Below are positions 2,745 to 40,726 of a stretch of DNA of 64,000 nucleotides, piece after piece. Source of the DNA: a virus. The stretch spans positions 1 through 64,000 of the IMG/VR virus record IMGVR_UViG_3300015360_000002. One strand, written 5' to 3'. Both the position numbers and the translations under genes were made by a program. How positions within the stretch are numbered: the first letter of the stretch is position 1; every line of letters starts with the position of its first letter. Under the pieces are notes generated by a model that was not told where the DNA came from, ran no database searches, and worked only from the letters and a program-made list of their open reading frames with translations.

Positions 2745-3418
2745 AAACTCTTCGATTTATACTTCTCCTCACGGTTCTGACGGGTGCCCTCCAAGCAGCA
2801 CGCACTTTCCCCAATGACCTAACAAAGTACATCCAGCTTAATACGACCCCGGTCACAACTGCCCCGATGACTTTTTCCGCTTGGGTTAAATTCAGTTCCA
2901 CCGTAACGGGTCAAATACTCTTTATGGTGGCCGAAAGCACCGTTAACGCCCATGCCCTTTGGCTAGGTACAACGACCAACGCCTTGGAGGCCGGTGAATG
3001 GGATGGTGGCCCCGTCGCAAGGGCTCAATCCGGCACGATTTCAACGGGGGTCTGGTATCATGCGGGAGGCGTCTTTACCAGCCTCAGCTCTCGCGCTGTT
3101 TTTCTTGATGGGGTGAAAACGACAAACACGACAACGATCGGAAGTGTTCACACCCCCGGGAAGGTTGTCGTAGGCCGATGGGATGGCGCGGGTTCGGCTC
3201 TTCAGGGAGACCTCGCTGAAATCGCGATTTGGAACGTGGCTTTAACAGACGCCGAAATGTCGACGCTCGCGACCGGAGTTAGTGCGTTACGGGTTCGTCC
3301 AAGTGCGCTCGTTTTATATATCCCTTTATGGGATTCGGTCTTCGATTATAAGGCGAGCCGAGCTATAACTACGAACACCACGACCACAACCGTTTCTGGA
3401 CCTCGCAGATACCGATGA
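2741..3418 (+). CDS. Secreted LamG/concanavalin-like protein
   Basis: 225 residues. The N-terminus is a clear signal peptide (Lys-Arg start, hydrophobic core FILLLTVLTGAL, AXA-type cleavage near residue 20). The rest matches the LamG/Concanavalin-A jelly-roll pattern: FSAWVKF near residue 45, WYHAGGVF near 103, VFLDGVKTT near 121, and GDLAEIAIWNVALTDAEM near 156-173, the usual end of laminin-G-like domains. The start ATG overlaps the fibre stop by 4 nt, so translation is probably coupled. It is likely a carbohydrate- or surface-binding accessory of the fibre module, or an exported protein. A signal peptide is odd for a virion fibre. Confidence 0.7.
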   Translation: MKTLRFILLLTVLTGALQAARTFPNDLTKYIQLNTTPVTTAPMTFSAWVKFSSTVTGQILFMVAESTVNAHALWLGTTTNALEAGEWDGGPVARAQSGTISTGVWYHAGGVFTSLSSRAVFLDGVKTTNTTTIGSVHTPGKVVVGRWDGAGSALQGDLAEIAIWNVALTDAEMSTLATGVSALRVRPSALVLYIPLWDSVFDYKASRAITTNTTTTTVSGPRRYR

Positions 3419-3481
3419 AGCTCCTCCTCTTCCTGATCTTCGTTCAAATCTCCCCGAATTAACCGCGAAACAACTTTCCTC

Positions 3482-3763
3482 ATGGCAATTATCAAGAAAT
3501 TGGCTAACTGGCGAAATTGGCTTAGAGGTCTTTTGGCTGCCGCAATTGGAGGAGCGGCGAACGCGACCACGTTGATGGTAGTCGACCCTCTACAATTCAA
3601 CTTCAATACGGGAATGAGCGCGCTCTGGAAGGTATCCTTGGTTTCGGCGGTTCTCAATGCGGCGTTTTACCTGAAGCAGAGTCCGATCCCTCCGTCCGAA
3701 GAAGAGGATGATGCATTGCAACCTGATGCTACTTTCACGCCTTCAAAAGATAAAACGCCATGA
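3482..3763 (+). CDS. Small membrane protein, holin candidate
   Basis: 93 residues. A basic N-terminus is followed by a hydrophobic segment (residues about 17-30), a DPLQFNFNTG turn and a second hydrophobic segment (about 44-62), then YLKQSPIPP and an acidic, disordered tail. Two membrane passes, small size and a place beside a lipoprotein and another membrane protein suggest a holin or other lysis-timing protein. No holin family signature is certain. Its stop overlaps the next start (ATGA). Confidence 0.5.
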   Translation: MAIIKKLANWRNWLRGLLAAAIGGAANATTLMVVDPLQFNFNTGMSALWKVSLVSAVLNAAFYLKQSPIPPSEEEDDALQPDATFTPSKDKTP

Positions 3764-4140
3764 GGTATCTCGTTTTTCTTGCATTGGTGCTGAGCGGCGC
3801 CCTCCTTGCGGCCCCGCCTCCATTCACGACGGACCTACCTGCTGAACTCGTAGGCAAAACGGATCTTTGGTTGGCAAGGCTTGAGCCATCTCCAGGAGAC
3901 CCAGAGGGCGGGCTCTACATGGTTCAACGCAGATTCCTGGGTCGCTACTCCGACGCACGGGCGCGGGGCTACCCTTGGTCATGGGCTCCACTGCCTGCTG
4001 TCTTTGATGCCTTTGACCGCTCTACGCAGCCCCCGTCCGATCTCGAAATTAAAGCCGAGCGCGCAGAGAGCGAACGCCTGCGGGCGCGCATCAGAGCCGC
4101 CGTTTCAATACTTCAACCTCCAGTCAATGTTGCACCATGA
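3760..4140 (+). CDS. Small secreted protein of unknown function
   Basis: 126 residues with a signal peptide (MRYLVFLALVLSGALLAAP, cleavage probably after LLAA). The mature part has no domain I recognise. It contains a central Trp/Pro-rich stretch (YPWSWAPLPAVF) and a charged helical C-terminus with SDLEIKAERAESERLRARI. It overlaps both neighbours by ATGA junctions inside a run of four envelope-targeted genes, so a role at the host envelope (lysis, spanin or superinfection functions) is the reasonable guess. No function can be assigned. Confidence 0.55.
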   Translation: MRYLVFLALVLSGALLAAPPPFTTDLPAELVGKTDLWLARLEPSPGDPEGGLYMVQRRFLGRYSDARARGYPWSWAPLPAVFDAFDRSTQPPSDLEIKAERAESERLRARIRAAVSILQPPVNVAP

Positions 4141-23322: not shown

Positions 23323-24240
23323 ATGACAGATCCAATCAAAACACGCACCGAGGCGGATGCGATCAACGAGATCATTCGCGACTCCCAAAACCGAGTGGTT
23401 CCCGACGATAAAGTCGGCGCCGCCCTGTCCACCGGTATCATCGTATTCCAAGACAAGTCTATCCTGAATCTCGAAACATTACAGCGATCACCCAAGCGCA
23501 AGCGCGCGCGCGTGAAGGTTTATGATGTCGCGAGCTTCATTCACTACGTCAAAGACCACAAGATTGATGGCCAGACGGCGGTTTTTGTTAACACGTCACC
23601 CACCAGCGCCAATTTTTGTGCAATAATCGACTATCACGGCACCGGAGACATGGGACCCGCCTGGGGAGAGCATGTGTGCGAACTGGAACTACGAACCACC
23701 CATGAGTGGCAAGTCTGGACGGGCTCAAACAACAAGCTCATCGGTCAAGAAGCGTTTTCCGAATTTCTCTTGGATAACCGGCGCGACATCGTGCGGCCCG
23801 ATGCGGGCATCCTGTTGGATGTCGCTCGGCTCCTCTGCGCGAAGAAGTCGGTGGACTTCAAGTCCGGCATCAATTTGAAGAACGGGGCCAACCACCTAGA
23901 ATTCGTGGAGACCATCGAAACCCGGGGGATTTCAAACCGGGTTGAGGACGCAATGGACATCCCCGATACGTTCATGATCGGCATCATCCCCTTCTCGGGC
24001 GGCGCCCACGAGATGATCGAGGCTCAACTCCGCTTCCGGATCATTGATCGAAAGCTCTCTTTCGTTTACGTGCTCCTCCAGCCCCACAAAATCGTGGAGG
24101 CGGCGATCGATGCGGCGCGCGCGAAAGTCGAAGCTGAACTCGAATTCGTTTACTACGGCGGAGCGGCTATCACACCACCTCCATCCTTGGGCGTTTACTA
24201 CGGCGGACCGGCTATCACACCACCTCCATCCTTGCGCTAA
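23323..24240 (+). CDS. DUF2303 family protein
   Basis: 305 residues. Family signs: VKVYDVASFIHYVKDHKIDGQ (about 66-86) followed by TAVFVNTSP, a central AIIDYHGTG and WQVWTGSNNKLIGQEAFSEFL (about 130-150). These match DUF2303/YfdQ proteins common in phage recombination or early regions. The last 30 residues are a perfect tandem duplication of a 15-residue unit beginning VYYGGxAITPPPSL (45 bp repeats, 24148-24237). The normal C-terminus is therefore probably shorter. Function of the family is not established. Confidence 0.75.
   Translation: MTDPIKTRTEADAINEIIRDSQNRVVPDDKVGAALSTGIIVFQDKSILNLETLQRSPKRKRARVKVYDVASFIHYVKDHKIDGQTAVFVNTSPTSANFCAIIDYHGTGDMGPAWGEHVCELELRTTHEWQVWTGSNNKLIGQEAFSEFLLDNRRDIVRPDAGILLDVARLLCAKKSVDFKSGINLKNGANHLEFVETIETRGISNRVEDAMDIPDTFMIGIIPFSGGAHEMIEAQLRFRIIDRKLSFVYVLLQPHKIVEAAIDAARAKVEAELEFVYYGGAAITPPPSLGVYYGGPAITPPPSLR
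24148..24237 (+). repeat. Two tandem 45-bp repeats at the DUF2303 gene 3' end
   Basis: Two 45-bp units (24148-24192 and 24193-24237) are almost identical, with only a few base differences, and keep the reading frame. They look like a recent slippage or unequal-crossover duplication of the C-terminal 15 codons. Confidence 0.9.
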
Positions 24241-29174: not shown

Positions 29175-30522
29175 CCTTCCCCACTCCATCGAGGCCGAGG
29201 AATACCTGCTTTCCAGCCTGTTTGTGGCTGGGGCCCAGGGTGTCGCGTCCGCCGTCAATTCCGGCGTCTCGCCTGCCACTTTCTTCGCCGAAACCAATGC
29301 CACAGTGTTCGGCGCGATCATCACCCTCGCAGAGCGTGGCCAGGTCCCGAGCGTCCAAGCAGTTATCCACGAGTTGAATTTCTCAAAAACTCTGACGCAG
29401 GCCGGGGGGATGCCGGACGTCCTGCGCATCGTCGGATTGGTGCCAACCTCAGTAAATCTATCGCTCTACATCCAGCGCGTCAGGGAGTTGCAGCTTCTCC
29501 GCACGATCGCTCGCACCACTCGGGCACTCCACGAGGAGGCGTTCAGCCAAGAGGCCAATGTGCCTGAATTCGCCGAGCGAGTCGAGCGGACCATCCTCGG
29601 ACTGTCTCAGGATCGCGTAAAACCTGCCCGGACGTGGGAACAGGCTGTTGCCGAGACTTCCACCGAGTTCGAGGCAATGCTCCTTGCGAAGCCGGGCGCC
29701 GTTCTGGCCGGCGAAATCTCGTGGGGATTCCCCGACATGGACCGATTCTTCGGGCCAATGGCGCCCGGCCAGCTCGTCATCCTCGCAGCACGCCCTAGCG
29801 TTGGAAAATCGAGCCTCATGCGCCAAACCGCTACCGAGGTATTAAAAACCGGAAAGATCGTCTCCATCGCAAGCCTAGAGGTCAAGGACAGGGCAATAGC
29901 ACGGAACATCGCTCAGGCTTTGAGCGGCATCAGTTATCGCGCGCTTCGCGTTGGGGCCCATCCGGCAGAAGCCGAGGACTTCCGCCGTGCGTTGGAAAAA
30001 GTGAAGTATCTCCCTCTCATCGTCACCGACGATTTTTCGGCAACAGTTTCGCAAATATGCGCACAAGCCCGCCTTGCGAAGGCAAAACGAAACCTTGGAC
30101 TCGTGTGCGTCGATCACCTCCACGAGCTCGCCGAATGCAAGAACCCACCGAAGGGCACCAATACAGCCCAAATGTACGGACGCGCGGTCAAAGCGTTCAA
30201 GGAATTGGCCGGTGAACTCGAAGTCCCCGTCCTCGTGCTCGCTCAACTCAACCGCGGATCAGAATCAGATAAACGCGTCCCCACCCTCTCCGACCTCCGT
30301 GACTCCGGGAACATCGAAGAAGGAGCGGATAAGGTAGTTTTGCTACACCGTCCGCTCGAAAACCCGCTGAACAACATGCAGCAGTCCGAGACGAGCAATC
30401 CGAAGGATCACCCAACGTTTTACACCCAGGCAATCCAAGCCAAGGGCCGCGATGATGGCACGAATTCGATGGGTATCATCTTCCAACGCGCCACAGCGCG
30501 ATTCGTTCCACTCACCCGATGA
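29167..30522 (+). CDS. dnaB: Replicative DNA helicase (DnaB family)
   Basis: 451 residues from the ATG at 29167, which overlaps the previous stop. N-terminal domain: HSIEAEEYLLSSLFVAG and the helical region to about 150. C-terminal RecA-like domain: Walker A ARPSVGKSS (about 217-225), Walker B LVCVDHLHEL (about 313-322), LAQLNRGSE (about 357), RDSGNIEEGADKVVLLHR (about 375-392), and the final QAKGRDDGTNSMGIIFQ. These are the DnaB motifs H1 to H4. It unwinds DNA at the phage fork. It probably pairs with the upstream initiator-like protein. Confidence 0.95.
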   Translation: MPDLPHSIEAEEYLLSSLFVAGAQGVASAVNSGVSPATFFAETNATVFGAIITLAERGQVPSVQAVIHELNFSKTLTQAGGMPDVLRIVGLVPTSVNLSLYIQRVRELQLLRTIARTTRALHEEAFSQEANVPEFAERVERTILGLSQDRVKPARTWEQAVAETSTEFEAMLLAKPGAVLAGEISWGFPDMDRFFGPMAPGQLVILAARPSVGKSSLMRQTATEVLKTGKIVSIASLEVKDRAIARNIAQALSGISYRALRVGAHPAEAEDFRRALEKVKYLPLIVTDDFSATVSQICAQARLAKAKRNLGLVCVDHLHELAECKNPPKGTNTAQMYGRAVKAFKELAGELEVPVLVLAQLNRGSESDKRVPTLSDLRDSGNIEEGADKVVLLHRPLENPLNNMQQSETSNPKDHPTFYTQAIQAKGRDDGTNSMGIIFQRATARFVPLTR

Positions 30523-30911
30523 CCACCACAGGCACAATCCTCCGCGCCAGCGTACGCAATGATGGCACCATCGAACTCAGGGACCAAGAAAACCGGCTCC
30601 ACAACGACAACGACCTGCCGGCTTGTGTCGCTCTGGACGGTTCTCAAGCGTGGTTCCGTTATGGCCAAGGACACCGGGACACCGGACCTGCGTTCATCCA
30701 CGCCAACGGGTCTGCCGTGTTCTTCCTCAACGGATCTTTCGTCATGCAGGATGATTCCGGCTTCAGCCTCCTCAACCCACCCAAGCCGGTCGTGTTGATC
30801 GAGACCTTGCGCAGCCTGTACAATGTCGCACCGACCAAGGAAGTCGAAGACGCGATCCTCGCGATTGCCGAAAAGCACGGGCATCCCACCCACACAGTTT
30901 GCTTCTCATGA
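30519..30911 (+). CDS. Small hypothetical protein with MORN-like strands
   Basis: 130 residues in ATGA junctions. DGTIELRDQENRLHNDNDLPA then GSQAWFRYGQGHRDTGPAFI and NGSAVFFLNGS are repeated strand-turn motifs like those of MORN/YwqK-type proteins. The C-terminus is helical (VEDAILAIAEKHGHPTH). Between helicase and methyltransferase, function unknown. Confidence 0.45.
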   Translation: MTTTGTILRASVRNDGTIELRDQENRLHNDNDLPACVALDGSQAWFRYGQGHRDTGPAFIHANGSAVFFLNGSFVMQDDSGFSLLNPPKPVVLIETLRSLYNVAPTKEVEDAILAIAEKHGHPTHTVCFS

Positions 30912-31789
30912 CGTATTATAACGACCACGACGCAAAAACCTGCGCCTGGCTGCGAGAGCTCATCGCCTGCGATCTCATACCGGCCGGCGAAGTTGATTCA
31001 CGCTCGATCACCGATGTCCACCCAACTATACTTGCAGAGCCTCATCAATGCCATTTCTTCGCCGGCATTGGTGGCTGGCCGCTCGCGCTCCGCCTCGCAG
31101 GATGGCCCGATGACCAGCCTGTCTGGACTGGCTCCTGTCCGTGCCAGCCTTTCTCAGTCGCCGGAAAACACACAGGCGAAAACGACTCGCGGCACCTTTG
31201 GCCTGAATTCCTCAGACTCATCACCGAGCGACTCCCTTCAACGATCTTTGGAGAACAGGTTACGGGCGCGTCTGGACGTCAGTGGCTCTCTGGAGTACGT
31301 GCTGACTTGGAAACGCTGGGATATGCAGTCGCTGCCGCCGATTTGTGCGCTTCGAGCGCGGGCGCACCTCACATCAGGCAAAGATTATACTGGGTGGCCA
31401 GCGCCGACGGTCGGAAACGCGACAGGCAGTCAATCGGCGAAGGGCGCGAGCCCAACGGGACGAAGGGAGGACGGTTCAAAGGCGACCGTGAGCTTGAGCG
31501 CGGTAGCGAGGTTGGCGGGTTGGGCGACCCCAACTGTGCAGGACTCGAAGAACAACGCTGGTCCCTCTCAGTTTCGCCGGAACAGCCTCCCCCTCAATTG
31601 CGAGGCAACTCTTGGAGTCACTTCGATCTCCTCCCTTGCACAGACGGCAAAACGAGGCGGATTGAACCCGGCTCATTCCCGCTGGCTCATGGGATTCCCG
31701 CCCGCTTGGTGCGACTGCGCGGTTACGGCAATGCAATCGTTCCCCAAGTCGCCGCTCAGTTCATCAAAGCGTTCATCGAAACCCGCTGA
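30908..31789 (+). CDS. DNA (cytosine-5) methyltransferase
   Basis: 293 residues from the ATG at 30908 (ATGA junction; a TTG at 30899 would add three). Motif I FAGIGG (51-56), motif IV GSCPCQPF with nucleophile Cys79, motif VI GEQV (115-118), motif VIII QRLYWVA (158-164), and C-terminal motif X GYGNAIVPQVAAQF. The target-recognition part between VIII and X is short and low in complexity. It may methylate phage DNA against host restriction. From 31014 onward the whole gene is overprinted by a second frame (see next entry). Confidence 0.9.
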   Translation: MTYYNDHDAKTCAWLRELIACDLIPAGEVDSRSITDVHPTILAEPHQCHFFAGIGGWPLALRLAGWPDDQPVWTGSCPCQPFSVAGKHTGENDSRHLWPEFLRLITERLPSTIFGEQVTGASGRQWLSGVRADLETLGYAVAAADLCASSAGAPHIRQRLYWVASADGRKRDRQSIGEGREPNGTKGGRFKGDRELERGSEVGGLGDPNCAGLEEQRWSLSVSPEQPPPQLRGNSWSHFDLLPCTDGKTRRIEPGSFPLAHGIPARLVRLRGYGNAIVPQVAAQFIKAFIETR

Positions 31790-31817
31790 CTTTGCTCCCG
31801 CAAAAACAACACCATGA
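31014..31817 (+). CDS. Overprinted second-frame protein with WPTP/WLMG-type motifs
   Basis: 267 residues in the +1 frame relative to the methyltransferase, covering most of it and passing its stop. Two facts suggest it is real. The peptide carries recognisable patterns: SLEYVLTWKRWDM, GWPAPTV and GWATPTVQD repeats, and LNPAHSRWLMGFPPAWCDC near the end, like the recognition or C-terminal part of phage methyltransferases. Its TGA overlaps the next gene's ATG at 31814 (ATGA), the junction used across this operon, whereas the methyltransferase stop lies 25 nt away. It may be a partner or specificity subunit. A TTG at 30993 is an alternative start. Confidence 0.6.
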   Translation: MSTQLYLQSLINAISSPALVAGRSRSASQDGPMTSLSGLAPVRASLSQSPENTQAKTTRGTFGLNSSDSSPSDSLQRSLENRLRARLDVSGSLEYVLTWKRWDMQSLPPICALRARAHLTSGKDYTGWPAPTVGNATGSQSAKGASPTGRREDGSKATVSLSAVARLAGWATPTVQDSKNNAGPSQFRRNSLPLNCEATLGVTSISSLAQTAKRGGLNPAHSRWLMGFPPAWCDCAVTAMQSFPKSPLSSSKRSSKPADFAPAKTTP

Positions 31818-32257
31818 AATCCAAAATAATCCAACGGGGCCTTGTGTCCCTCCTGCTTGTATTTTTCGTCGCCCTCAGCAAGGCCGCCGATCTCACCCTC
31901 ACATGGAAGGACAACTCTGCCAACGAGGACGGTTTTGTCATCCAGCGATCCCCCGGGATCGGCGCCCCAGTTTTCGCCGAAGTCGCCAGAGTAGCCAAAG
32001 ACGTCACGTCATGGACTGACACAGGGCTCGCGAACGCTACTTCGTTCTCCTACCGCGTTGCCGCGTTCAATCCTGGTGGCACTTCAGCCTTCACGAACAC
32101 TGCAACCGGCACCACCGTCGTCGCACCTCCCAATGCTCCTTCTGATGCCACCGTCGTCACCGTCACCGTAACCGTCTCGATCCAGCAATCCAAGACGGGC
32201 GCAACCATCGCCTCAGCATCGCCCGTCATTCTCCATCGCGCCGCCGCTCCACTGTAA
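31814..32257 (+). CDS. Secreted fibronectin type III-like protein
   Basis: 147 residues. Signal peptide (residues 1-23: GLVSLLLVFFVALSKA), then one FnIII-like domain: LTLTWKDNSANEDGFVIQRS, TSWTDTGLANATSFSYRVAA and FNPGGTSAFTNTATGT. A Thr/Val-rich strand tail follows. An exported Ig-like domain at the end of a replication operon is unexpected. It could act at the host surface (adhesion, exclusion). Coupled to the overprinted frame by ATGA. Confidence 0.6.
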   Translation: MKSKIIQRGLVSLLLVFFVALSKAADLTLTWKDNSANEDGFVIQRSPGIGAPVFAEVARVAKDVTSWTDTGLANATSFSYRVAAFNPGGTSAFTNTATGTTVVAPPNAPSDATVVTVTVTVSIQQSKTGATIASASPVILHRAAAPL

Positions 32258-35313: not shown

Positions 35314-36027
35314 CTACATGCCGGACCTCTGGAAAGACCAAAAGCCTACCCCCAACGGATCGCATTCCCTCCGCCCCATTATGAGGTGGTCTATCACCGT
35401 AATATCCACCGTTGCCCCCGCCTCCCGCAGAGTGCGTGTGATCCGGATATCTTGGGCGCTGGGACTCGGGTCTCCGCTGGGATGATTGTGCACACAGATA
35501 ATGCCCGATGCCGACTCCATGATCGCCGTTCGGAACACCTCCCGGGGATGCACCAGCGTGCTTGAGGCGATTCCTGATGAGACCTCCACCCGCTTGATAA
35601 GGCGTCCTTTGCGATTGAGGCAGAGAACCCAGAACTTCTCCACCTCCAACCCCGCGCACACGGGCGACATGTGATTTGCTACTTCATCTGGCACGTCCAG
35701 AATTGGCACCACTCCCGGCACCCCTGCCGTCATCCTGCGGCCAATCTCCATCGCCGCCACCAGCCTCTCCGCGAACCCCCTCGGGATTCCCGTCCGTGCC
35801 ATCCGCGCGAGATCCCACCCCGCCAGTGCTGGCAGGTTTCCCGCAGCCGCCACAAGCTCCCGCGCCTTGTCCACCGCCTTTAGCCGGTCACCCCCACACA
35901 ATGCCGCCACAAGCTCCCCGTCTGAGAGAGCCTGCGCTCCATATTTGGCCATCCTCGCCTCCGGCCCTTCGTGGAGAGCCATCCCGCTCTCATCCCTCAC
36001 AATCCACCGACCATTTTTCGTTTTCAT
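35314..36027 (-). CDS. radC: RadC/JAB-like protein
   Basis: 237 residues from the ATG at 36027 (a GTG at 36036 adds three). An N-terminal helix-hairpin-helix-like half (YGAQALSDGELVAALCGGD, then GWDLARMARTGIPRGFAERL) precedes the MPN/JAMM domain with HNHPSGDPSPSAQD (about residue 194) and ECDPLGVGFWSF at the end. This is the RadC/DUF2466 layout. RadC proteins are common in mobile elements. Their biochemical role is unsettled, but a metal-dependent JAB activity is predicted by the His-His-Asp arrangement. First gene of the leftward operon. Confidence 0.9.
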   Translation of the reverse strand: MKTKNGRWIVRDESGMALHEGPEARMAKYGAQALSDGELVAALCGGDRLKAVDKARELVAAAGNLPALAGWDLARMARTGIPRGFAERLVAAMEIGRRMTAGVPGVVPILDVPDEVANHMSPVCAGLEVEKFWVLCLNRKGRLIKRVEVSSGIASSTLVHPREVFRTAIMESASGIICVHNHPSGDPSPSAQDIRITRTLREAGATVDITVIDHLIMGRRECDPLGVGFWSFQRSGM

Positions 36028-36036
36028 CTCCCGCAC

Positions 36037-36485
36037 TTACCCACAAAACCTTAATAACCGCACGCTTAAAATTAGCACCACTCGCATCCTCCTCTACCTC
36101 AGTCACTTCCGCTTATCATAGTTCACGCGTCGCTCAATTCCCTTTCCGAATTTCAGAGGGTGTAACCTCCCCTTCGGGTAAAACGAGGCGATCTACTCCC
36201 ATCGAACCACCACGGTTCACCTCTCAGCATCCCCAGCTTCTTTTCTTCGTGAAGCCATATCTCTTTGCCTGCTCTATGTCTTTCGGAGTCGGAGGGCTTT
36301 TACACTTCCGTCAAGCTCTTTCTCGCTTTTGAGCCAACAAGTCTCTTCTGCGTACCTCTCCTCGCTTTCCAGACTCCTTTTGCTTTTGCGTTGTCTTCGC
36401 CCACCGGCTTACCTCAATCATTCCCATGTCACCGCGCCTATCCAGCCCGCGTTCGTCCGATCAAGGACCATCGAGGGGTCGGGGC
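36037..36485. other. Long intergenic region with purine-rich minus-strand leader
   Basis: 449 bp, pyrimidine-rich on plus, so the minus strand is purine-rich. A 38-codon minus frame lies at 36311-36427 (MGMIEVSRWAKTTQKQK), and a 22-codon one (MGVDRLVLPEGEVTPS) farther left. They are separated by stops and lie in one frame, so they may be remnants of one gene. Leader or promoter functions for radC and for the plus gene are likely. No convincing -10/-35 pair was found. Confidence 0.35.
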
Positions 36486-36887
36486 ATGGCTATCGAACAA
36501 GCGATTTCGTTTTCCGCTGACGAGGTCGCAAGAGCCAAGGCCAAGTTGCTCGACCTGATGGATGCCAATGTCGTCGTCAGGGGCACTGAGCGTAATGCTG
36601 AAGGTCGATGCGTTTACATTGAGGTCGCCAACCAGCCCATCCAGCTCGCGGCCGCGATCAAGGTGGTCGAGTGGGGGATTGGCAAACCGTCACAAATGGT
36701 CGTGGTCGATCAAACGGAGAGTTATCGACCGGCACGAGCGGATCTCGGAAAGATGCTCGTCGCGAATCCCTCCTTGATTGAGACCGTACTGCGCACGATC
36801 AAGGAGGCGGCTGAACAGTCGCAAGCGATTCCCGTGCAGAGCGTTGTGTCAGATCGGGCCGAAGCGGCACAAGAGTCAATATCTTGA
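36486..36887 (+). CDS. Possible terminase small subunit
   Basis: 133 residues from the ATG at 36486, with GAGGGG about 8 nt upstream. An ATG at 36426 would add 20 unlikely residues. Helical N-terminus (SADEVARAKAKLLDLMDANV), then strand-turn GRCVYIEVANQPIQLAAAIK and VVEWGIGKPSQMVVVDQ. The AAIKVVEWGIGKPSQ motif is like that of phage small terminases (xxIKxxExGxGKPxQ). The end is disordered. It stands upstream of the terminase large subunit by several kb, so the call rests on this motif. Confidence 0.4.
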   Translation: MAIEQAISFSADEVARAKAKLLDLMDANVVVRGTERNAEGRCVYIEVANQPIQLAAAIKVVEWGIGKPSQMVVVDQTESYRPARADLGKMLVANPSLIETVLRTIKEAAEQSQAIPVQSVVSDRAEAAQESIS

Positions 36888-37187
36888 GGCTTACCTAGCT
36901 AAGTCTCCAAACTGTGCAAGGACTGCGCAATCTCCATCCCCCTTCCCCTTCCTCTCTCTTCCCCATGGTCATCCTCTCCTCTCCTCCCGTCTTGTCGCCG
37001 CGCCGATCGTCGGCTCGCTGCCTTGTCGCCGCGTCACCTACCCCCCCACACCCCTTTTTCGTGTCCCCGTATCGGCGCAGCCAGGCGCGCGGTACTGGGG
37101 GGTCCCCTGCCTCTTTGGTATTGGGAGGGGGGAAAGGAGAGAAAAAAATGGGAGAATTTTTTTGGAAGTGAAAAAGGAGAGTTAAAA
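36888..37187. other. Intergenic region with strand-skew switch, candidate origin
   Basis: 300 bp. The first half is C/T-rich on plus (36940-37000), and after about 37110 the sequence becomes G/A-rich. It contains direct repeats of CTTGTCGCCGCG (36991-37002 and 37022-37033) and the hyphenated palindrome GCCGA-tcg-TCGGC (37002-37014) between them. Repeats, a palindrome and a skew change together are features of replication origins. No initiator box is known here. No gene is supported. Confidence 0.4.
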
Positions 37188-37616
37188 ATGGCGACATTGA
37201 ACAAGGTTTTTTTGATTGGGAGAGTGGGAAGGGACCCTGAGATGAGGGAGGTGGGGAAAGGAGGGGTTGTGTGTAATTTTTCGATGGCGGTGATGAAGGA
37301 GGTGGAGGTGGAGGAGGGAGTTAGAAGAGAGGTGACGACGTGGGTGGATTTGGAGGCGTGGGGGAAGACAGGGGAGTTGTGTGGGAGGTATTTGAGGAAG
37401 GGGGGAGGGTGTCACGTGGAGGGGAGGTTGAAGGTGGAGGAGTGGGTGGACAAAGTGAGTGGAGGGAAGAGGAGTCGGATGAAAGTGGTGGTGGAGCGTG
37501 TGCAATTTTTGGATAGGAGGGAGGGAGTGGAAGAGGTGAAGGAGGTTAAGGAAGTGAAGGAGGTTAAGGTGAAGAGGGAGGAGAAGGTATTTCCTGACGA
37601 GGACGCGCCATTTTGA
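37188..37616 (+). CDS. ssb: Single-stranded DNA-binding protein
   Basis: 142 residues. GGAGA lies 8 nt before the ATG (strong Shine-Dalgarno). The OB fold is clear: NKVFLIGRVGRDPEMREVG (strand 1 and 2), CNFSMAVMKE, TTWVDLEAWGKTGELCGRYL, and GCHVEGRLKVEEWVD. After a KEVKEVKEVKVKR repeat linker it ends DEDAPF, an SSB-type acidic tip that recruits replication and repair partners. It is the first gene of the extremely purine-rich block (about 5% C here). Confidence 0.95.
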   Translation: MATLNKVFLIGRVGRDPEMREVGKGGVVCNFSMAVMKEVEVEEGVRREVTTWVDLEAWGKTGELCGRYLRKGGGCHVEGRLKVEEWVDKVSGGKRSRMKVVVERVQFLDRREGVEEVKEVKEVKEVKVKREEKVFPDEDAPF

Positions 37617-37624
37617 GGGGGAGA

Positions 37625-37656
37625 GAAACTGAGAAACTGAAACTGAAACTGAAACT
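37625..37656 (+). repeat. GAAACT hexamer repeats after ssb
   Basis: Five copies of GAAACT (37625, 37633, 37639, 37645, 37651), the last four in tandem, then a GAAACAACT variant. They fill the 60-bp gap between ssb and the next gene. Likely slippage-prone. Could be iterons. Confidence 0.8.
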
Positions 37657-37676
37657 GAAACAACTGAAGGAATGTG

Positions 37677-38000
37677 ATGAAAACTATTATGGAAGTGATG
37701 AAGTCGGAGGAGGCGAAAGAGATGGCAGAAAATCAGATGGGGGACGCGGTGAAGGGTGTGATGGAGCGAGTGTTGAAATGGCGAGATGAGCTTCTGGAGG
37801 GAGGGATGGAGGAGGGAGATGTGGTGAAATCAGTGATAGCGACGGGGTATGTGCTGGGGGTGATGGACGCGGCGAAGAGCGCAACTCAGATTGGGAAAAT
37901 GAGTGGAGAAGTTCCGCTGAAGGAGTGGGGAGATTTTACGAGGGAGGTGGTAAGAAATCTCCAGAGCAGGAGGAGTGGGAGGGTAGCAGGGAGGAACTGA
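37677..38000 (+). CDS. Helical hypothetical protein
   Basis: 107 residues. GAAGGA upstream of the ATG at 37677. Helical (MKSEEAKEMAENQMGDAVKG, VLKWRDELLEGGMEEGDVVK), then a small mixed part (SVIATGYVLGVMDAAKSAT) and a basic end (RRSGRVAGRN). Very low C content as in ssb. No family is recognised. Context suggests a DNA-replication accessory protein. Confidence 0.45.
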   Translation: MKTIMEVMKSEEAKEMAENQMGDAVKGVMERVLKWRDELLEGGMEEGDVVKSVIATGYVLGVMDAAKSATQIGKMSGEVPLKEWGDFTREVVRNLQSRRSGRVAGRN

Positions 38001-38001
38001 A

Positions 38002-38520
38002 ATGAAGAAGAGGGGCCTGGCGATTAAATGGATGGAGCTACCGGAGCACGTGAGGGCGATGAATCGTCACGTGGAGGGGGAGGTGTTTGTGAGGAATTTT
38101 GAAGAGTCGTTGGGGATTGAGAAGGAGATGGTGAGGAGGGAGGAGAAGGGGGAGGAGAGAGCAGTGAGACGACTGAGGCAGAGACAGGAGCCGGTGATGA
38201 ACAAACTTGAGGAGCGGTTTTATGAGCAGTTGAAGAAGGACAAAGATCGGTGTGACGAGAAGGGGAAGGTGATAGGGGAGATCAAGATTCAGGCAGTGAG
38301 GTTGGAGTTGGCGCGGGGGATTTGGTACAAGCCGGACTTTTTTTTGGTGGAGGGGAAGAGTTTGAGGCCGATCGCGTATGAAGTGAAGGGGCCGAAAGTG
38401 TTTAGGGGAGGGTTTGAGAATTTGAAGGTGGCGGCGAGGGTGCACGCGTGGATCAGGTTTTATCTGGTGTGGGAGAAGACGCGAGGAGGGGAGTGGGAAA
38501 GACAGGAGGTTTTACAATGA
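38002..38520 (+). CDS. PD-(D/E)XK nuclease-like protein (DUF1064-type)
   Basis: 172 residues. YKPDFFLVEGKSLRPIAYEVKG gives the motif: Asp112 in PDF and Glu127-x-Lys129 in EVK. The later FENLKVAARVHAWIRFYLVW matches DUF1064 phage proteins, which are candidate Holliday-junction or DNA-processing nucleases. The N-terminal half is charged and helical (VRNFEESLGIEKEMVRREE). Part of the purine-rich block. It could resolve recombination intermediates made by the early module. Confidence 0.65.
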   Translation: MKKRGLAIKWMELPEHVRAMNRHVEGEVFVRNFEESLGIEKEMVRREEKGEERAVRRLRQRQEPVMNKLEERFYEQLKKDKDRCDEKGKVIGEIKIQAVRLELARGIWYKPDFFLVEGKSLRPIAYEVKGPKVFRGGFENLKVAARVHAWIRFYLVWEKTRGGEWERQEVLQ

Positions 38521-38768
38521 ACAACAACGTGAATAGCGCGCTGGCAAAAGCTGGGATGACGAAGGAGAACGTCCGTCGGATCATGGACGAGGTGGAGGTG
38601 AATTATGAACGGTTGGACAGGTGTCCGGCGCACGCGTTTGAGTTGATCGAGGGAGGGCAGCCATTGCGGAACCGATATGCGTGCAAGGTGTGTGGAGGGG
38701 AGGTCGACAATACGGCGCGATTTTGGTATACGAAGGGACTGGAGCACGGGAGGAGATTTGGAAAATGA
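38517..38768 (+). CDS. Small Cys-containing protein
   Basis: 83 residues, ATGA overlap. Helix (MTKENVRRIMDEVEVNYERL), then CPAHAFELIEGG and YACKVCGGEVDN: C-x23-C-x2-C spacing is compatible with a small zinc site. End YTKGLEHGRRFGK is basic. It may bind nucleic acid. Unknown. Confidence 0.45.
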   Translation: MNNNVNSALAKAGMTKENVRRIMDEVEVNYERLDRCPAHAFELIEGGQPLRNRYACKVCGGEVDNTARFWYTKGLEHGRRFGK

Positions 38769-39046
38769 CCGCGATCGAAACAGTGAAGGAGTTTCAGAAG
38801 TGGAGGAGGGGAGAAGGGAGGTACGCGGGTACGGAGAACGGGGGGAGGCCGGAACCGATGCCGCAAACGCCGGAACAGTATGGGTTGGCGATTGACGAGG
38901 TGGTGAAGTTGGCGGAGATCGGGAGGCTGTCGGTGGAGGAGGCGAGGACGTGCCATGAGAAGCTGCCGCTGGACGTCTGGCTCAAGGCGAAGGCGGCGTT
39001 GCTTGCGAAAATTAATGAATTTATGAATACGAAGGGGGAACCATGA
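38765..39046 (+). CDS. Small hypothetical protein
   Basis: 93 residues, ATGA overlaps on both sides. VKEFQKWRRGEGRYAGTENG and EPMPQTPEQYGLAIDEVVKL are typical of a short phage protein type in which a Trp-Arg-Arg-Gly motif precedes a Pro-containing linker and a helix (EEARTCHEKLPLDVWLK). Function unknown. Confidence 0.45.
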   Translation: MTAIETVKEFQKWRRGEGRYAGTENGGRPEPMPQTPEQYGLAIDEVVKLAEIGRLSVEEARTCHEKLPLDVWLKAKAALLAKINEFMNTKGEP

Positions 39047-39231
39047 AGCGGGCGATCGTGCAGTTTGTGGCGGTGGTTGGGATTATAGGGACGACCCTGC
39101 ATGTGGTGCTGGGCGTTTCTGTCGGGTTGATGGTGGTTTCCGCAGTGGTGAGTGGAATAGGGGTGGTTGTGGTGATTGCGGCCGCGGTCAGCCTGAAACG
39201 GAAAAATGATAAAGAGGAGGAGGGCAGATGA
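39043..39231 (+). CDS. Small membrane protein
   Basis: 62 residues. Two hydrophobic segments (FVAVVGIIGTTLHVVLGVSV and MVVSAVVSGIGVVVVIAAAV) with a basic/acidic tail (LKRKNDKEEEGR). Two-pass hairpin, likely inner membrane. Could affect host membrane or exclusion. No family is recognised. Confidence 0.45.
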   Translation: MKRAIVQFVAVVGIIGTTLHVVLGVSVGLMVVSAVVSGIGVVVVIAAAVSLKRKNDKEEEGR

Positions 39232-39437
39232 AACTGACGACGCTCGAACTTGAACGGATGGCGAGAAGGGGAGCGGAGGACGGGTACGATACGACGTGGC
39301 ACGCGCAGATGACCGAGAGTCCAAGGATGAGATCGACCATGGGGAGGATTCGCGACGAAACGCTGGCAACGCTTTTTTTGGAGGACGAAAAGGCGTATCA
39401 GGAAAGCCTGGCAAAATGGGGGAAGGAAAATGGATGA
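39228..39437 (+). CDS. Small hypothetical protein
   Basis: 69 residues in ATGA junction. Helical (TLELERMARRGAEDGYD, TMGRIRDETLATLFLEDEKAY). C content rises from here on, so it marks the fading edge of the purine-loaded block. No family is recognised. Confidence 0.4.
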   Translation: MKLTTLELERMARRGAEDGYDTTWHAQMTESPRMRSTMGRIRDETLATLFLEDEKAYQESLAKWGKENG

Positions 39438-39693
39438 GGTGATCCATTTTACGATTCCGGACATAAAGCTGGGGGTGACGCGCAAGCTGGAGATGGAGAC
39501 GCTTGCGAGAGAACTGAGGAAGCACGGGTTTAAGGTCGGAGGTATGAGAGCGGTGCAGTCATGGATGTCGGTGCGAGAGATGGAGGATAAGTTTAAGAAA
39601 ATTCTCGAAGAAGCGGGGGTGGCCCGACTGGTGGTCTGGCACGAAGACCGAAATCGCTGCGTGAACGTGCGGGCATACCGTAAGGTGAAGTAG
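39430..39693 (+). CDS. Small hypothetical protein
   Basis: 87 residues, overlapping its neighbour by 8 nt. Begins with a strand-turn (VIHFTIPDIKLGVTRKLEME), then helices (LARELRKHGFKVGGMRAVQSW) and a C-terminal strand pair (VARLVVWHEDRNRCVNVRAY). Could be a small alpha/beta domain. Function unknown. Confidence 0.45.
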   Translation: MDEVIHFTIPDIKLGVTRKLEMETLARELRKHGFKVGGMRAVQSWMSVREMEDKFKKILEEAGVARLVVWHEDRNRCVNVRAYRKVK

Positions 39694-39704
39694 CGATTTT
39701 TCTG

Positions 39705-39926
39705 ATGTCGATACACGTGATACCGATTGGGGATGAGAAGCCGCACGAGACCACGCACGAATGCGCGTGCCGGCCGACCGTGGAGTGGGTGGATCCGACG
39801 GACGGTAAGCCGTACGAGAATGGCCCGTTAGTCATCCACAATTCGTACGATGGCCGGGAATACGTGGAACGTGCGATCGGGGAAAGTCTGGTGAAGGGGA
39901 GTCGGTGGAAAGTGATCGAAGTATGA
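39705..39926 (+). CDS. Small conserved-type phage protein
   Basis: 73 residues. HVIPIGDEKPHETTHECACRP and VEWVDPTDGKPYENGPLVIHNSYDGREYVERA fit a recurring phage protein pattern with a short Cys-x-Cys and a conserved Ile/Val-His-Asn-Ser/Ala-x-Asp-Gly-Arg box. Such proteins are found before terminases or in early regions. Function unknown. Coupled by ATGA to the lipase gene. Confidence 0.5.
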   Translation: MSIHVIPIGDEKPHETTHECACRPTVEWVDPTDGKPYENGPLVIHNSYDGREYVERAIGESLVKGSRWKVIEV

Positions 39927-40726
39927 AACCGTCAAAATTAGATGCGGTGATTTGTTGCGACTTGATTCGTGGAGTTTACTCCGCGTTTGAAGCATGGGAA
40001 CAGTCCGGCCGGCCCAGAGAGGGAAGTTTTGAATGGAAGGACTGTTTGATTTGGGGGGAGTCGATGAGCTACGAGCGCAGGCCGGGGCCGCGTGAGCGGC
40101 ACCATTGGGTCAGGGAGTGGTCACCAATGGGCACGTGCCTGTTGATTGGGAAAACGTTGTACGTGGTTTTCCGGGGAACATGCACCGCGCATGAGTGGAA
40201 CAACAACGTCCGGTTTCCGCTGCGATCGTTTCGGGTGCCGATTGGAGCGGATGTGAATTTGTTGGCACCGCGCGAGTATTACATGGGCAACGTCCATGAC
40301 GGATTTGCGGACTCAATGGAATCACTTCAGCAGGATCTTATCGCAGAGGTGAAGCGCCTGATACCGGGAGCAGAGAGGGTGATTGTCACAGGGCATTCAT
40401 TGGGGGGTGCGATCGGAACGCTCGCGTTTGCGTCGATCCTGGCGCGGTTGCCGATTGCGAGAATGACGACGGGGATGGTGTTTGGCTCGCCGAGGGTCGG
40501 GAACCAGGAGTTCAAGCGTGCATTTTACACCGTGGGGAATCCTGAGACGTTCTGGAGATACGAGTTGATGCACGATCCGGTCGTGGATGTGCCACCCAGG
40601 AAGATAATGTGGGTTTGGGAATACAATCACGTGGGCGAGCAGATTCTCCTGACGGAGCAGTTCGGGAGCGATCGGAAGAATCACGCGATCGAGAGCTATC
40701 GGACGGCAATCATGAACCTGCCATAG
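39923..40726 (+). CDS. Class 3 lipase-like alpha/beta hydrolase
   Basis: 267 residues. Nucleophile elbow VIVTGHSLGGAIG (Ser about 158), FGSPRVGNQEF (about 192-202), catalytic-Asp region LMHDPVVDVPP (about 214-224), then NHAIESY with the probable catalytic His (about 254). YVVFRGT (about 80) supplies the oxyanion-side strand. This is the complete pattern of the Lipase class 3 family. It would hydrolyse lipid esters. No signal peptide is seen, so it may act inside the cell at the membrane or depend on lysis. It precedes terL and lies at the edge of the purine-rich block. Confidence 0.85.
   Translation: MKPSKLDAVICCDLIRGVYSAFEAWEQSGRPREGSFEWKDCLIWGESMSYERRPGPRERHHWVREWSPMGTCLLIGKTLYVVFRGTCTAHEWNNNVRFPLRSFRVPIGADVNLLAPREYYMGNVHDGFADSMESLQQDLIAEVKRLIPGAERVIVTGHSLGGAIGTLAFASILARLPIARMTTGMVFGSPRVGNQEFKRAFYTVGNPETFWRYELMHDPVVDVPPRKIMWVWEYNHVGEQILLTEQFGSDRKNHAIESYRTAIMNLP

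Follow-up and report, generated by a model that had tools for sequence, protein, structure and literature searches.

C5-cytosine methyltransferases that consist of two polypeptides, one nested in the gene of the other, have been known since 1995. In that year, Lee, Kam and Shaw (1995) reportedly described the beta gene of M.EcoHK31I as nested within the alpha gene in a different frame. The larger subunit of this enzyme contains motifs I-VIII and X as well as the predicted recognition domain, and motif IX is located in the smaller polypeptide (PMC3404938). M.AquI is a C5-methyltransferase made of two polypeptides, divided in the variable region, and its beta holds both IX and X (PMC3404938). 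An out-of-frame ORF has also been described in the phage ShiLan, where the methylase contains an insertion and the ORF encodes an HNH homing endonuclease in the inserted element (PMC11855218).

We analyzed a 64,000-nucleotide stretch of viral DNA, here called the window, which covers positions 1 to 64,000 of the 64,795-base virus record IMGVR_UViG_3300015360_000002. A methyltransferase locus in the window very probably encodes, in frames 0 and +1, the two subunits of a C5-cytosine methyltransferase organized like M.EcoHK31I. Judged by the description of M.EcoHK31I (YGGCCR), the motifs are divided in the same manner, with I-VIII and X in alpha and IX in a second polypeptide, and beta is nested in an alternative frame of alpha, as is reportedly the case in M.EcoHK31I. 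The differences are that the window locus is a phage gene with no restriction enzyme gene recognized adjoining it, that its alpha motif VI reads EQV, and that its beta also holds a variable region, whereas the recognition domain of M.EcoHK31I is placed in the larger subunit (PMC3404938). A search of plasmids for a restriction-linked relative identified no EcoHK31I-like restriction-modification system. Unlike M.AquI, the window locus keeps motif X in alpha, in frame 0, and is thus not of the M.AquI type. It resembles ShiLan in having an out-of-frame ORF in a phage methylase gene, but the ORF in ShiLan is not part of the enzyme. The labels "DNA methyltransferase" for phrog_1008 and "Mte8-like protein" in K1 phages refer to the same family as beta, and are silent both on its nesting and on its being the recognition/IX part of the enzyme.

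The catalytic frame and the nested +1 frame

The features of the locus are listed below in window coordinates.

30519..30911, +, upstream gene, function unknown; its stop overlaps the alpha ATG (ATGA 30908-30911)
30908..31789, +, alpha, C5-cytosine methyltransferase catalytic frame, 293 aa (PF00145, phrog_363)
31014..31817, +, beta, nested +1-frame protein, 267 aa from ATG 31014 (phrog_1008; stop depletion; frozen synonymous sites)
31058..31075, +, alpha motif I, FAGIGG (sequence; near-invariant in alignment A3)
31133..31156, +, alpha motif IV with catalytic Cys, SCPCQPFS (M.HhaI Pro-Cys motif alignment)
31224..31364, +, beta predicted folded core, helix 71-89 and beta-hairpin 95-117 (YVLTWKRWDM...ICALRARA; AF2)
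31253..31261, +, alpha motif VI variant, EQV replacing ENV (alignment A3)
31361..31393, +, alpha motif VIII region, GAPHIRQRLYW (sequence; M.HhaI alignment)
31392..31412, +, beta repeat 1, GWPAPTV (sequence)
31518..31538, +, beta repeat 2, GWATPTV (sequence)
31662..31709, +, beta motif IX, LNPAHSRWLMGFPPAW (hhalign against in-frame motif IX of single-chain methyltransferases)
31709..31768, +, alpha motif X, VRLRGYGNAIVPQVAAQFIK (sequence; R271 and G274-I277 invariant in A3)
31814..31817, +, ATGA junction, beta stop overlapping the ATG of the next gene (31814)

Frame 0 extends from the ATG at 30908 to the stop at 31787-31789 and matches PF00145 (Pfam, E=4.4e-18) and phrog_363 (E=2.7e-74), in agreement with the 293-residue cytosine methyltransferase that the initial annotation had placed there. 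Motifs I, IV (Pro-Cys), VI (as EQV), VIII and X are conserved across 44 homologues; residues E116, Q117 and V118 of motif VI are invariant in alignment A3, and EQV is the norm of the clade. The AF2 model of alpha matches the fold of M.HaeIII and M.HhaI over about 190 columns, which correspond to the catalytic body, and residues 186-227, between motifs VIII and X, are predicted to be disordered when alpha is modelled alone (pLDDT < 50). By the PF00145 criteria, alpha is the catalytic chain of a C5-cytosine DNA methyltransferase. Motif IX was not found in frame 0 and is present in the +1 frame. The initial claim that frame 0 contains all core motifs therefore holds for I, IV, VIII and X, but not for IX, nor for the canonical form of VI. 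Since motif IX is situated outside frame 0, in the +1 frame, the locus is not of the single-chain type, and this siting is a pointer to the function of beta.

In the +1 frame, an ORF already open upstream of 30993 continues to the stop at 31815-31817. The 267-residue ORF from 31014 and its ATGA junction were both as first annotated, and an alternative start, TTG 30993, would give 274 aa. The product of the gene at 31814-32257, whose start is coupled to the beta stop, has a hydrophobic N-terminus and matches fibronectin type III weakly (1.7e-4), short of the Pfam cut-off. In beta, a lightly constrained N-terminus is followed by a predicted core of helix and beta-hairpin, by GW-x-TP repeats with variable spacers, and by LNPAHSRWLMGFPPAW. 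The patterns initially listed for this frame, SLEYVLTWKRWDM, GWPAPTV/GWATPTV and LNPAHSRWLMGFPPAWCDC, were all recovered, and G127 and W128 are conserved in over 90% of the sequences. The predicted folded core (pLDDT 78-88, AF2) overprints alpha motifs VI-VIII, and base 31709 is where motif IX ends in the +1 frame and motif X begins in frame 0. Elsewhere in the window, at 24147-24234, two 45-base tandem copies lie within an ORF (C-terminal YYGGPAITPPPSL repeats).

Beta is assigned to phrog_1008 by a profile match over most of the protein (E=2.3e-23; residues 19-251 to profile positions 16-288 of 329). No match to beta was obtained in Pfam, NCBIfam, PADLOC or PDB sequences. Its AF2 model is mostly of low confidence (mean pLDDT 61), and a fold search of the PDB with this low-confidence model as query gave nothing below E=0.5.

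Selection on both frames

Loci were fetched with the protein of each frame separately; across all loci there were 287 overlapping alpha-beta pairs. In all 80 loci fetched by the alpha protein alone, there was a significant +1 match in an open frame. For 69 non-redundant homologues, synonymous codons were permuted within each gene. Against this null, which keeps the codon usage of the gene but not the dinucleotides across codon junctions, +1 stops in codons 35-266 were reduced to 0.10 per gene from 3.04 in the shuffles. The +2 frame was not depleted (9.23 versus 9.18 over the same codons), nor were the three antisense frames (3.75, 6.29 and 5.38 stops per gene versus 3.88, 5.46 and 4.93).

The depletion is confined to alpha codons 37-270 and starts abruptly. 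Over alpha codons 1-36, 118 +1 stops were observed versus 110 expected; codons 37-44 contained 7 versus 20 expected, and codons 45-241 contained none versus about 167 in the shuffles. The 7 leftover stops all fall in codons 37-43, upstream of the +1 start, and 62 of the 69 genes have an overlap region free of +1 stops (shuffles: mean 3.9, maximum 10). This sharp boundary at codons 37-44 marks the start of a gene. Consistently, 46 of the 69 genes have a +1 ATG at codons 34-42, compared to 28.6 +- 3.1 in the shuffles, with Shine-Dalgarno-like 4-mers ahead of those ATGs in 32 genes, compared to 12.6 +- 2.9. The position of the start codon differs among relatives, and no obvious Shine-Dalgarno sequence precedes ATG 31014. 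We infer that beta is translated separately from its own start codon within alpha, here probably ATG 31014.

Fourfold-degenerate third positions of alpha are the second codon positions of the +1 frame. Their entropy decreases from 1.78 bits (codons 1-36) to 1.64 (45-105), 0.93 (106-170) and 0.57 (251-270), with the strongest synonymous constraint from codon 104-110 onward; the first ~60 residues of beta are therefore only lightly constrained and the remainder strongly. Several fourfold sites are frozen, namely G262 as GGG (68/68), A260 as GCT (61/61), P254 as CCC (51/51) and A149 as GCG (52/52). Fourfold divergence between close pairs was 0.108 in the core versus 0.234 in the non-overlapped N-terminus. 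When 5 kb around the locus was compared with other phages by megablast, only 31662-31770 matched, where motif IX in the +1 frame meets motif X in frame 0. Some similarity in the +1 frame arises simply from the conservation of frame 0 (mean identity 0.25 in the shuffles), and because third positions are frozen the similarity of other frames also exceeds the null. The similarity score is thus not frame-specific; the frame-specific evidence comes from the number of stops and the pattern of frozen sites.

The +1 frame is a real gene, and the dual coding is under selection. The long double coding proposed in the initial annotation was thereby borne out, with a +1 frame stop-free in homologues and frozen fourfold sites: both frames are conserved with low synonymous change among the 69 homologues and the close pairs, and the +1 stops in relatives that would have spoken against it are absent from codons 45-241.

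Function of the second polypeptide and alternative readings

A profile of +1 proteins aligned with in-frame single-chain methyltransferases over the motif IX segment (hhalign E=4.6e-6). With a profile built from overlapped betas only, residues 129-235 aligned with Phasih gp65 at residues 255-371 of the catalytic frame (HMM i-Evalue 1.8e-9 in a 10-sequence set). The phrog_1008 profile also matches in-frame C-termini, as in Phasih gp65 (2e-48) and a Streptomyces plasmid enzyme (6.7e-32). The single-chain enzymes of actinophages and the Streptomyces plasmid have EWMMGxPxGWVT in the catalytic frame, followed by motif X, LGNGVVPQQ. Their profile aligns this segment with M.HhaI 272-307 (RKLHPRECARVMGYPDSY...FGNSVV), motif IX to X, although the domain alone is sub-threshold. 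The alignments indicate that the resemblance of beta to the methyltransferase variable region and motif IX reflects homology, in line with the C-terminal or recognition segments that the initial annotation had seen in this frame. On the same grounds, beta carries what alpha lacks, motif IX and the variable region preceding it.

Alpha and beta are most likely two subunits of a single DNA-methylating enzyme. The AdoMet site and the catalytic Pro-Cys would come from alpha, together with motifs VI, VIII and X. Beta would contribute a small folded core, a variable region for target recognition that contains the GW-x-TP repeats, and motif IX, a segment that in single-chain enzymes appears between the recognition region and motif X. 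Binding of beta to alpha would rebuild the complete enzyme, which is predicted to methylate the phage genome at a specific sequence and may plausibly shield it from host restriction.

The two subunits have to be weighed against other accounts of the +1 frame. It is improbable that beta is a real overprinted protein with a separate accessory role, such as a regulator, inhibitor or anti-restriction factor, and not a part of the methyltransferase. Such a role would fit with a beta core over motifs VI-VIII to which nothing in single-chain enzymes corresponds, with the existence of a free-standing copy of beta (L099:3992-4693), and with the retention of the +1 core in Graduation and Phasih although their motif IX is in the catalytic frame; however, the profiles show the C-terminal half of beta to be homologous to the C5-methyltransferase segment made up of the recognition region and motif IX, and it is exactly this segment that alpha is without. 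Programmed ribosomal frameshifting from alpha into the +1 segment, which would give a fusion instead of a nested gene, is highly improbable. It would agree with the variable start codon of beta and with a relative frame of alpha and beta that is always the same, but the fusion would require a second shift back for motif X, and neither the chance-level +1 stops up to codon 36 with the boundary that follows, nor the enriched ATG and Shine-Dalgarno-like sites, nor a free-standing copy with its own start fit this account.

The probability that the +1 frame is a by-product of alpha conservation, codon bias or high GC, and yields no product, is negligible. The GC content of the window is about 58%, and some +1 similarity follows from frame 0 conservation as noted above. 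Against this stand the approximately three stops per gene in the synonymous shuffles versus 0.10 observed, the lack of depletion in the +2 and antisense frames, the invariant fourfold sites, the retention of the +1 frame in phages of 44-45% GC, and the survival of a beta copy without alpha. An ORF driven by chance or GC content is ruled out by the synonymous shuffles, the frame controls, the N-terminal control and the low-GC relatives.

Distribution, frame arrangements and annotation

Beta was identified in 265 phage records and also in prophage-like loci of many bacterial genomes. The 44-45% GC phages with beta are Vequintavirinae, Paenibacillus phage Genki and Lactobacillus phage Lc-Nu. In more distant C5-methyltransferases, from Staphylococcus phage SpP and Mycobacterium phage Bombitas, the +1 frames are full of stops, and an open +1 frame is therefore not inherent in such genes.

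The arrangement of the frames varies. In Gordonia phages Jumbo (L193:1306-2197) and GordDuk1 (L199:988-1861), frame 0 stops after motif VIII, and the +1 ORF contains the recognition region and motifs IX and X; this is an AquI-like division, but with overlapping frames. In Mycobacterium phage Jarcob (gp69/gp70, L205:1021-2191), the catalytic domain of the methyltransferase is itself divided over two frames, with the break after motif VI; the +1 part holds motif VIII, LPTP repeats and motifs IX and X. As the same module is found both in frame and out of frame, the frame relationships have changed during evolution. The free-standing copy in L099 is a beta paralogue directly after an alpha-beta pair, with no methyltransferase frame beneath it, and demonstrates that beta can be maintained as a protein on its own; it is possibly a second specificity subunit. 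Widespread free-standing betas were sought, and one contig only (L099/L207, the same contig) was found beside the 287 overlapping pairs. Another phage contig has two alpha-beta pairs about 1.1 kb apart (L100:906-1892 and 3001-3993).

A broader hypothesis, which we offer tentatively and consider rather doubtful, is that dual coding is an ancestral or standing condition across the clade, that the recognition/IX module moves between frames, and that extra betas are swappable specificity subunits. The module would on this hypothesis be in frame in actinophages and in +1 elsewhere. Extra betas could retarget one alpha because beta is a separate chain, and might act in a manner similar to Type I S subunits.

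Annotations of the pair are uneven. Both genes are annotated in K1G, as "C-specific methylase" and "Mte8-like protein", and in Genki and PhiXhv-18, as methyltransferases, but only alpha in N15 (gene 58) and only beta in PMG1. A search of the open literature yielded no paper that reports or explains this overlap in phages. The near-universality of the overlap in this phage clade, the frame movement of the module and the one free-standing beta appear to be under-recognized. In many records only one gene is annotated for a phage C5-methyltransferase of this clade, N15 gene 58 being an example, and a probable subunit is then missing; heterologous expression that ignores the +1 frame, for example after codon optimization, would destroy beta. 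As an instance of long double coding on one strand the locus is unusually clean: both products are recognizable and apparently form one enzyme. With in-frame single-chain relatives available for comparison, the origin and persistence of overlapping genes could be tested in laboratory phages.

The best bacterial match to beta (56%) is from the verrucomicrobial Geminisphaera colitermitum TAV2 (L212), a hint at the host group of the window phage. Further along the window, the GC skew becomes sharply positive at 36000-40000 (0.195, then 0.439) following a long negative stretch, and an SSB gene is located at about 37173-37613.
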